From contig NZ_FNCS01000001.1 in assembly GCF_900100665.1 (NCBI RefSeq), positions 417,119-481,118 on the forward strand: 64,000 nucleotides of DNA. Reading direction: 5' to 3'. The stretch is from Pelagibacterium luteolum (GTDB lineage: Bacteria > Pseudomonadota > Alphaproteobacteria > Rhizobiales > Devosiaceae). The notes below the pieces were generated by a model. That model searched no databases, was not told where the DNA came from, and saw only the letters and a program-made list of their open reading frames with translations. Position 1 is the first letter of the stretch. Each line of letters begins with the position of its first letter. Shown one piece after another: positions 7,598-46,175 of this stretch. Made by a program: the position numbers and the translations under genes.

Positions 7598-8695
7598 CTA
7601 GCCCAGCTTGGCAATAATCGCGTCGGCCATTTCCGCCGTCGTCACCTTGCGGCACCCGGTCTGCATGATGTCCCCGGTCCTCAACCCGTCCTCGAGCACA
7701 TCCGATATCGCCGTTTCGAGCCTGGTCGCCAACTCGACCATTCCGAACGAATAGCGCAGCGCCATCGCAAACGAGGCGAACATGGCGATCGGATTGGCAA
7801 TCCCCTGCCCGGCGATATCGGGCGCCGAACCATGCACCGGCTCATACATCGCCTTGCGCATCCCGGTCTCGGGATCGGGCGCGCCAAGCGAAGCCGAGGG
7901 CAGCATGCCCAGCGACCCAGTCAGCATCGCCGCGGCATCGGAAAGAATGTCGCCGAACAGATTGTCGGTCACCATCACGTCGAACTGTTTCGGGTTGCGC
8001 ACGAGCTGCATGGCGGCGTTGTCCGCCAAAATCTGCTGCACTTCGATTTCCGGATAGTCCTTGGCGGCCTGCTTTACCACCTCGTCCCACAAGACGCCTG
8101 ACTTCATGACGTTCTTCTTGTCGGCCGAATGGACCTTCTTGCCGCGCGTCATGGCGAGGTCGAGGGCCACCCGCGCGATGCGGTCGATCTCATAGCTCTC
8201 ATAGACCTGCGTATCGACGGCGCGCTTCTGGCCATTGCCCAGATCGGTGATTTCCTTGGGCTCGCCGAAATAGACGCCCCCGGTCAACTCGCGCACGATC
8301 AGGATATCGAGCCCTTCGACAAGTTCGCGCTTGAGCGAAGACGCATCGGCCAGCGCCGAATAGCAGATGGCCGGGCGCAAATTAGCAAACAGCCCCAGGT
8401 CTTTGCGCAACCGCAACAGCCCCGCTTCCGGCCGCACATCATAGGGCACGTCGTCCCATTTCGGGCCGCCAACAGCGCCAAAGATCACAGCATCGGCTGC
8501 AACCGCCTTGGCCATATCCTCTTCGGAAATCGCCACCCCATGCGCGTCATAGGCACAGCCCCCGACCAGCCCGCTCTCATAGGAAAAATCGGTCGCCCCG
8601 CTACCATTGAGATGCGCGATCAGCTTTTCGACCTCCGCCATGATCTCGGTGCCGATCCCGTCGCCGGGCAGAAGAAAGAGGGTATGCTGGGCCAT
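7598..8695 (-). CDS. leuB: 3-isopropylmalate dehydrogenase
   Basis: NAD-dependent oxidative decarboxylation of 3-isopropylmalate in leucine synthesis. The 365-residue protein has the opening [12 protein letters not shown], the substrate segment [13 protein letters not shown], the ERELTGG-like [11 protein letters not shown] loop, the metal-binding [13 protein letters not shown] region and the NAD-binding [18 protein letters not shown] box. It is second in an operon with leuD, 54 bp downstream of it. Full length and intact. Confidence 0.97.
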
Positions 8696-8749: not shown

Positions 8750-9355
8750 TTAGACCCAGGGACGATCCTGGGCCATCTTTGTCTCAAAACCACCAATCGT
8801 CTCGTCCTTCTTGAGCGTCATGGCGATGTCGTCTAGCCCTTCGAGCAGGACCTGCTTGCGGCCCGGATCGATGTCGAAATGGATCGTGCCGCCATCCGGT
8901 CCCGAAATCGTCTGCGCCTCGAGATCGACGGTAAGCGTCGCGTTCGACCCGCGATCGGCATCGTCGAGCAAAAGATCGAGCTGCTCGGGCGTCACCACCA
9001 GCGGCAGGATGCCGTTCTTGAAACAGTTATTGTAGAAAATATCGGCAAAGCTGGTCGAGATCACGCACCGAATGCCGAAATCGAGCAGCGCCCATGGCGC
9101 GTGTTCGCGGCTTGAGCCACAGCCGAAATTGTCGCCGGCGATGATAATCTTGGCACCACGATAGGCCGGCTTGTTCAGCACGAAATCGGACTTTTCCGTC
9201 CCGTCCTCGCTGTAGCGCATTTCCGAAAACAGCGCCGAACCAAGCCCCGTACGCTTGATGGTCTTCAGATACTGCTTGGGGATGATCATGTCGGTGTCGA
9301 TATTGATGATCGGCAGCGGTGCGGCAACGCCCGTCAATGTCGTGAATTTGTCCAT
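8750..9355 (-). CDS. leuD: 3-isopropylmalate dehydratase small subunit
   Basis: Small subunit of isopropylmalate isomerase, partner of LeuC. The 201-residue protein starts [31 protein letters not shown], has the conserved [17 protein letters not shown] loop and the NCFKNGILP segment. The ATG is preceded by AGGAG. It heads the leuD-leuB operon; the catalytic partner leuC is 35 kb away in this window. A palindrome shared with leuC lies 13 bp upstream of the start codon. Confidence 0.96.
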
Positions 9356-9368
9356 GCTCAGCTCCTAA

Positions 9369-9428
9369 CCGTACCCGGCGGTACGTCTCTCTTTCCCCGT
9401 GTCTAATCCAATCTGCGCCGATTGCCAA
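9369..9428 (-). promoter_or_regulatory. leuDB promoter with candidate leu operator
   Basis: On the minus strand TTGGCA (9428-9423), a 17-nt spacer and TAGACA (9405-9400) predict a start near 9393. An inverted repeat, read as ACGTACC-N4-GGTACGG (9386-9369), begins a few bases later and ends 13 bp before the leuD start codon. The same repeat is at the same relative place before leuC (44719-44736). It could be a DNA operator or a leader RNA hairpin just ahead of the ribosome site. Confidence 0.55.
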
Positions 9429-44678: not shown

Positions 44679-44736
44679 TTGACCCACGCCCCCCTCAAGG
44701 CGTAAAAACACGGTCAAACCGTACCCACCGGTACGG
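44679..44736 (+). promoter_or_regulatory. leuC promoter with candidate leu operator
   Basis: TTGACC (44679-44684), an 18-nt spacer and TAAAAA (44703-44708) predict a start near 44715. The perfect inverted repeat CCGTACC-CACC-GGTACGG (44719-44736) follows at once, 29 bp before the leuC ATG. The same repeat precedes leuD at the equivalent position (9369-9386). Confidence 0.6.
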
Positions 44737-44765: not shown

Positions 44766-46175
44766 ATGAGCGCCAAGACCCTCTACGACAAGATCTGGGA
44801 CGACCACGTGGTAACGACCAATGAGGACGGCACCGCCATCCTCTATATCGACCGCCACCTTGTCCACGAGGTCACGAGCCCGCAGGCGTTCGAGGGCCTT
44901 CGCATGTCCGGCCGCAAGGTTCGCGCGCCCGAGCGCACCCTGGCCGTCGTCGATCACAACGTCCCGACCACCGATCGCAGCCTGCCCAATCCCGATCCCG
45001 ACAGCGTCACCCAGATCGCGGCGCTCTCGGAAAACACCCGCGATTTCGGCATCGAATATTACGACGCCTATGACATGCGTCAGGGCATCGTTCACATCGT
45101 CGGCCCCGAGCAGGGCTTTACCCTCCCCGGCATGACGATCGTCTGCGGCGATAGCCACACCTCGACCCATGGCGCCTTCGGCGCTTTGGCCCACGGCATT
45201 GGCACCTCGGAAGTCGAACACGTTCTGGCCACCCAGACGCTGATCCAGTCCAAAGCCAAGAACATGCGCGTCACCGTCAACGGCTCACTGCCGGACGGCG
45301 TCACGGCAAAAGACATCATCCTTGCGATCATCGGAGAAATCGGCACCGCCGGCGGCAATGGCCATGTCATCGAATTTGCCGGCCAGGCCATTCGCGAACT
45401 CTCGATGGAAGGCCGCATGACGGTCTGCAACATGACCATCGAAGGCGGCGCCCGCGCCGGCCTCATCGCGCCCGACGAAAAAACCTTTGCCTACGTCAAG
45501 GATCGCCCGCGCGCGCCAAAGGGCGCTGCCTACGATATGGCGCTCGACTATTGGAAAACGCTCTATACCGACGAAGGCGCGACCTTTGACAAGGAAGTCG
45601 TCCTCGACGCCGCCAATCTCCCCCCGATCGTGTCATGGGGCTCTTCCCCGGAAGACGTGATCTCGGTCACCGGCGTCGTCCCCAATCCCGACGACATCGC
45701 CGATGCCAACCGCCGCGCCTCCAAAAAGCGCGCGCTGGAATATATGGGTCTGGAAGCAGGCACAAAGATCACCGACATCGAACTCGATCGCGTGTTCTTG
45801 GGCTCATGCACCAATGGCCGCATCGAAGATCTCCGCGCCGCCGCGGCCATCGTTGCTGGCCACAAGGTGCACCCGCGCGTCAACGCCATGGTCGTCCCCG
45901 GCTCGGGCCTCGTCAAAGCCCAGGCCGAAGCCGAGGGTCTGCACACCATCTTCATCGACGCCGGCTTTGAATGGCGCGAACCGGGCTGTTCCATGTGCTT
46001 GGCCATGAACCCCGACAAGCTCGCCCCGGGCGAACGCTGCGCCTCGACCTCGAACCGCAATTTCGAGGGCCGTCAGGGCTTTAAGGGCCGCACGCACCTT
46101 GTCTCCCCCATCATGGCCGCCGCCGCTGCCATCAAGGGCCACTTCGTTGACATCCGCGAATGGCCACGCACCTAG
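44766..46175 (+). CDS. leuC: 3-isopropylmalate dehydratase large subunit
   Basis: Fe-S catalytic subunit of isopropylmalate isomerase, partner of LeuD. 469 residues: opening [34 protein letters not shown], the first cluster cysteine in [14 protein letters not shown] and the other two in [13 protein letters not shown]. Complete. It is transcribed alone, far from leuD-leuB, but shares their upstream palindrome. Confidence 0.97.

Follow-up and report, generated by a model that had tools for sequence, protein, structure and literature searches.

The 64-kb window, by which we mean the whole stretch of DNA that was analyzed, carries leuC (44766..46175, plus strand) and leuD (8750..9355, minus strand), which encode the large and small subunits of isopropylmalate isomerase, as well as leuB (7598..8695, minus strand), located 54 bp 3' of leuD on the same strand and probably co-transcribed with it. 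All three are open reading frames (ORFs) with NCBIfam matches over cut-off, and the named leuC loci closest to that of the window were those of Pelagibacterium sediminicola and P. lentulum. The window thus probably belongs to Pelagibacterium (Devosiaceae, Hyphomicrobiales), and the genus and order names used below for the genomes with G numbers were derived from this placement. A motif search placed a predicted leuC operator, the perfect 18-bp inverted repeat CCGTACC-N4-GGTACGG (letters CCGTACC-CACC-GGTACGG), at 44719..44736 on the plus strand, and a predicted leuDB operator of 18 bp with one mismatch (CCGTACC-CGGC-GGTACGT) at 9369..9386 on the minus strand, from which the leuD ATG (9355, minus) is 13 bp downstream. 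At up to two mismatches, the window had two motif matches versus 0.12 expected. A sequence-only reading of this DNA had reported the repeat at 44719-44736, where we found an exact match, and had positioned it just after the start of leuC, which proved wrong: it lies 29 bp upstream of the leuC ATG. Of the identical arms and spacer length described there for the two genes, the equal spacer length held, with different spacer letters, while the arms did not, as only six of seven arm pairs match at leuD.

Promoters were predicted with sigma-70-like weight matrices, and the start points used here are likewise predicted. At leuC, a predicted -35 box TTGACC (44679..44684, plus) and -10 box TAAAAA (44703..44708, plus) set the operator center at approximately +13; at leuD, the predicted boxes TTGGCA (-35; 9423..9428, minus) and TAGACA (-10; 9400..9405, minus) set it at approximately +16. 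In the genus Pelagibacterium, the operator center fell at +9 to +13 in all nine scored leuC sites, each of which had TTGACC followed by an 18-bp spacer, and at +15/+16 in all eight scored leuD sites. Both genes were preceded by single 18-bp palindromes. Our Pelagibacterium set comprised 13 genomes, incomplete ones included, and G011 gave no leuC or leuD match, leaving 12 for these two genes; within 250 bp and at up to two mismatches, sites were found before leuC in 9/12 and before leuD in 8/12. The leuC promoter had no site in G004 and G006 and only a three-mismatch one in G005, and the leuD promoter had none in G002, G003, G005, and G006. Absence of the repeat before leuC and leuD of close relatives had been named as an observation that would speak against a shared regulator; most close relatives retained the sites. 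As a separate observation, the leuC of G020 (L171; genome 60% complete) had one in-frame TGA.

Across the whole genome (4.3 Mb), we found two exact motif matches, versus a mean of 0.00 in 40 fourth-order Markov simulations of 4.3 Mb, and four places at up to one mismatch, versus a simulated mean of 0.275 and a largest simulated value of 2. These four places were leuC, leuD, C37:265081, with ilvD 125 bp downstream, and C42:60735, which precedes a TetR-family gene that is itself followed by ilvC. The earlier reading had also named occurrence at many unrelated loci as a finding against its interpretation; within one mismatch, the repeat occurred at no unrelated locus in the genome. At up to two mismatches, there were 14 distinct places versus 7.15 expected, so that most of these are due to chance. 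One of them, C14:17515, was a fifth place of interest, 31 bp before lysC, a gene assigned to aspartate kinase from its similarity to the gene of a relative, which had been recognized by eye. The remaining nine fell within ORFs that score above a Pfam cut-off (cytochrome c, YkuD, ThiC, LysM, ABC transporter, M50 peptidase, ribosomal protein S3, FAA hydrolase, and Trans_reg_C/TPR), none of them in the branched-chain pathway. Mechanical ORF overlap was useless on its own as a site filter, because the leuC, leuD, and lysC sites are themselves overlapped by long ORFs on the other strand, and the Pfam check of the surrounding ORFs was used instead. A reversed-pattern control was as frequent as the motif at up to one mismatch (4 vs. 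4) and more frequent at up to two (84 vs. 15). Given that this control was not rarer, the genome-wide counts are weak evidence, and what carries the case is the identity of the genes behind the sites, together with site conservation.

The only regulator gene at a site with up to one mismatch in this genome was the TetR-family gene. It lies directly upstream of ilvC (G000:C42:60039-60668, minus strand) and was classified as AefR-like, with an N-terminal TetR_N helix-turn-helix (PF00440; 26.1 bits, cut-off 24) and a C-terminal TetR_C_7 domain (PF14246; 61.4 bits, cut-off 22). Its own site is a 23-bp overlapping double of the motif that spans the predicted promoter of the tetR-ilvC operon, and the operator center fell at -11 to -21 from predicted starts in all 16 loci scored out of 24. 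A protein search (E up to 1e-35) found this TetR protein in 65/199 genomes of the order. ilvC adjoined tetR in 24/24 first-round orthologue loci (L182-L205) and in 30/30 order-level loci fetched from the 65 matches, some genomes being in both sets; the operator before tetR had at most two mismatches in 25 of these 30 loci and three in the other five, L321 being a three-mismatch case. The helix CSKE(T/S)LY was common to 20 orthologues with one substitution. The only genome of the family without a TetR match in the protein search, G015, had no site within one mismatch. Second TetR-type copies with weaker matches (L206 and L207) had no ilvC match alongside; upstream of this second gene in G017 and G047, we noted paired sites with a related half-site, ACGTAAT-N-GTGTACGG and CCGTAAT-N-GTGTACGG. 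Regarding gene arrangement, leuA, tetR-ilvC, and ilvB are on one strand within 14 kb (G000:C42:54707-68242), and leuC, leuDB, and ilvD are scattered.

In Pelagibacterium, the sites at tetR and ilvD were present in 13/13 genomes, at up to two mismatches for tetR and at up to one mismatch for ilvD. The ilvD site had the double, tetR-type form in 11/13 genomes and the single, leu-type form in two, including the window genome. Its center fell at -50/-51, or at -55/-56 in the other frame of the double site, in 14 of 15 cases; in G006 the script chose another promoter, and the TTTACA box there has the same spacing. By pattern search, a 6-nt gap separated the operator from a TTTAC box in all 13 Pelagibacterium ilvD promoters. 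Two genomes of genus g16 (G027 and G033), which is probably Devosia judging by the G033 leuC being nearest to that of Devosia soli (83%) among 80 named leuC loci, had sites at ilvD, leuD, and tetR-ilvC, and leuC, examined in G033, had one as well. Nine of the 80 named leuC loci had a site at up to two mismatches, namely P. sediminicola and 8/8 Devosia; P. lentulum had three mismatches and the other 70 had four or more, while control windows inside leuC gave 0/80 at up to two mismatches and 1/80 at three. In Devosia, the leuC operator was at -50/-51 in 9/9 cases (eight named loci and G033), the same position as that of ilvD in both genera. At leuD of g16, the script found no promoter in G027 and a different one in G033, with the operator at -36; by eye, the two genomes share a TTGACC that follows the operator after 7 nt. 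G033 had two further one-mismatch sites, one within an ORF and one 443 bp from the start of a downstream gene resembling glutamate dehydrogenase, neither of which was counted as a target. Sites before lysC were found in four genomes, those where the pattern match itself had brought lysC in, and the lysC promoters had poor scores.

From the motif, the genes it precedes, its conservation, the linkage of tetR to ilvC, and the predicted promoter geometry, all of which can be read from sequence, we infer that the repeat is very likely the operator of the AefR-like TetR regulator encoded beside ilvC, which would control scattered branched-chain genes; the repression and ligand proposed below are likewise inferred. 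The common regulator that the sequence-only reading had suggested for leuC and leuD is supported by comparison, as the motif precedes leuC, leuD, ilvD, and tetR-ilvC and recurs in relatives. Some observations fit this interpretation less well. The leuC and leuD sites are single, whereas tetR and 11/13 ilvD sites are double; the ilvD and Devosia leuC operators are near -50, an unusual place for a repressor; and the ilvB site has three mismatches in the window genome and varies in position between genomes. Furthermore, several Pelagibacterium genomes keep TetR and yet lack the leuC or leuD site.

Alternatively, another DNA-binding protein could regulate leuC, leuD, and ilvD, with the TetR operator resembling its sites through chance half-site similarity. 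Outside Devosiaceae, the exact pattern CCGTAMC-N4-GKTACGG was present in 20/58 TetR-bearing versus 0/58 TetR-lacking genomes, the latter coming largely from other families than the former, and a coordinate comparison placed 17 of the 20 exact sites at tetR itself. Because the exact motif is there mostly confined to tetR, with many distant genomes having the TetR operator and no exact site elsewhere, the leu and ilv sites could belong to a different protein with a similar half-site, a possibility to which the contrast between the single leu palindromes and the overlapping double at tetR also lends itself. However, ilvD orthologues within one genus bridge the two forms, and no regulator gene other than tetR stands at a close site in this genome, so we regard this explanation as unlikely. 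The three exact sites away from tetR were taken as chance: those in G094 and G166 were within long ORFs, and that in G092 was 34 bp before a transporter-like ORF recognized by eye and also inside other ORFs.

The earlier reading had offered a leader hairpin as the other option, in which an RNA structure would control translation or transcription of leuC and leuD. Both sites can fold to stems of 6–7 bp and are positioned downstream of the predicted start point and ahead of the ATG, and the leuC stretch folded somewhat better than shuffled sequences (z = -1.87). However, the leuD stretch folded no better than shuffles (z = 0.23), and 133 arm cells in 19 distinct leuC and leuD sites comprised 113 unchanged, 3 one-sided, 17 broken, and 0 compensatory. 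At ilvD, tetR, and Devosia leuC, moreover, a transcript would not carry the whole site, which there precedes or spans the predicted -10. In an Rfam scan of the window, only a tRNA reached its gathering score, with no match at the repeats. The lack of compensatory changes, together with sites outside the predicted transcript, favors a DNA operator, and we consider the hairpin very improbable.

In genus g10, an apparently large regulon (15 matches each in G021 and G030) was set aside: in G021, a small genome, 11 of 12 distinct places share a longer dispersed repeat, tetR being the remaining one, and similar extended palindromes made up the sites inspected in G030 and G035. Although these palindromes of a related genus and the high counts of the reversed-pattern control are what a chance palindrome or a dispersed repeat would predict, such an origin is scarcely credible in our genome, where places at up to one mismatch are far above the Markov expectation and, among five chosen Pelagibacterium genomes with sites (ten pairs), arm bases at orthologous promoters had an identity of 0.94 at leuC and 0.89 at leuD, while ungapped 40-bp flanks remained at chance level (0.27–0.38). 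The repeat palindromes of G021 (L208, L214, L217, L220, and L245-L251) could possibly act as decoys for the TetR protein.

Returning to the TetR regulator as the most probable binder, we propose that it would bind CCGTACC-N4-GGTACGG as a dimer and would autoregulate via the double site over its own tetR-ilvC promoter. In Pelagibacterium, its position at leuC and leuDB would be immediately 3' of the predicted start points and at ilvD immediately 5' of the -35 box, and lysC and ilvB may perhaps be further targets. Repression seems the natural reading for tetR and for Pelagibacterium leuC and leuD, and TetR would most likely be a repressor keeping isoleucine, valine, and leucine enzymes low, leaving the DNA upon binding a pathway metabolite; as ligand, an acetohydroxy acid, the substrate of IlvC, appears more likely than a co-repressing amino acid. 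Given that the position near -50 is fixed, it suggests contact with RNA polymerase, so that either sign of control may apply at those sites. A bolder and doubtful extension is that a single TetR acts as repressor or activator depending on position, and that when the leuC operator moved between -50/-51 in Devosia and approximately +10 in Pelagibacterium, the sign or mode of regulation changed too, with the regulator and its own promoter remaining as they were, so that a guard of ilvC turned into a pathway-wide regulator that was rewired between sister genera. With or without such a change of sign, the regulator may have been an ancestral guard of ilvC, later recruited to leuC, leuDB, and ilvD and perhaps to lysC and ilvB.

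Like local regulators of the AefR-like TetR type, the protein combines TetR_N and TetR_C_7 and has a palindromic operator across its own predicted promoter and an adjacent target; it differs in that it is predicted to act on genes of amino acid biosynthesis, a number of which are unlinked, whereas efflux and quorum control are the known settings of other AefR-like proteins. A full-length match to the TetR protein with a nearly identical recognition helix was PDB 3c2b (E = 2.9e-52), presumably from Agrobacterium tumefaciens, which is labeled only "Transcriptional regulator, TetR family" with its function unnamed, and for which we know of no target. In Escherichia coli, the gene for the LysR-type regulator IlvY is beside ilvC; here, the regulator gene is also beside ilvC, directly upstream of it, but encodes a TetR rather than a LysR-type protein and apparently reaches unlinked leu genes. 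In Actinobacteria, LtbR is an IclR-type regulator of leucine biosynthesis. Both it and NdgR, an IclR-type pathway regulator of Actinobacteria whose targets are described as including leuC and leuD (PMC4340878), resemble the system proposed here in being pathway regulators that include leuC and leuD, and differ in belonging to the IclR family and another phylum.

By title or beginning of the abstract, we found no paper on a TetR regulator of ilvC in the open-access literature, and the passages on ilvC and TetR in PMC2912261 had no bearing on the regulon. We did not find a TetR branched-chain regulon described in the open-access literature. While the class of regulator is familiar, interest would lie in the regulon, in how it expanded, and in the operator that moved. 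For branched-chain amino acid synthesis in this bacterial order, our results supply a motif, a list of targets, and a likely regulator, and they suggest what a TetR protein with a close relative of solved but functionally unnamed structure is likely to do. They also offer what seems to be a natural series of regulon growth: other families have exact sites almost exclusively at tetR, Devosiaceae have gained those at ilvD, leuC, and leuD, and the operator position has shifted between sister genera.

No site at up to three mismatches was present in the 500 bp upstream of leuA in 13/13 Pelagibacterium genomes. In the same interval upstream of ilvB, the best site had 0 mismatches in G004, 2 in G005, 3 in seven more genomes including that of the window, and 4 in G010 and G002, with G003 and G006 lacking any at up to four mismatches; of the ten ilvB sites scored, five were centered at -16 and five at -68 to -77. 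Upstream of both genes, all 13 Pelagibacterium genomes had short frames, Leu-rich for leuA and Ile/Leu/Val-rich for ilvB. From these leader frames we read that attenuation seems to govern the enzymes that commit to the pathway, and the TetR protein the others. Leader-peptide attenuators of ilvB and leuA belong to the same pathway and act through translation of the leader peptide, whereas leuC, leuD, and ilvD have palindromes in the DNA that show no compensatory change. The leuA leader frame (L325-L337), likely a leucine attenuator, is located approximately 200–300 nt upstream of the gene and ends in LLLISP or LLLISPW in 13/13 genomes. Approximately 40–158 nt upstream of ilvB (L347:3241-3359, minus strand), the leader with a short ILVV-type frame is overlapped by a match to Rfam RF02502 (Atu_C8), which is described as an sRNA of Rhizobiales; because of this overlap, members of this family may act as ilvB attenuators and not as free sRNAs.
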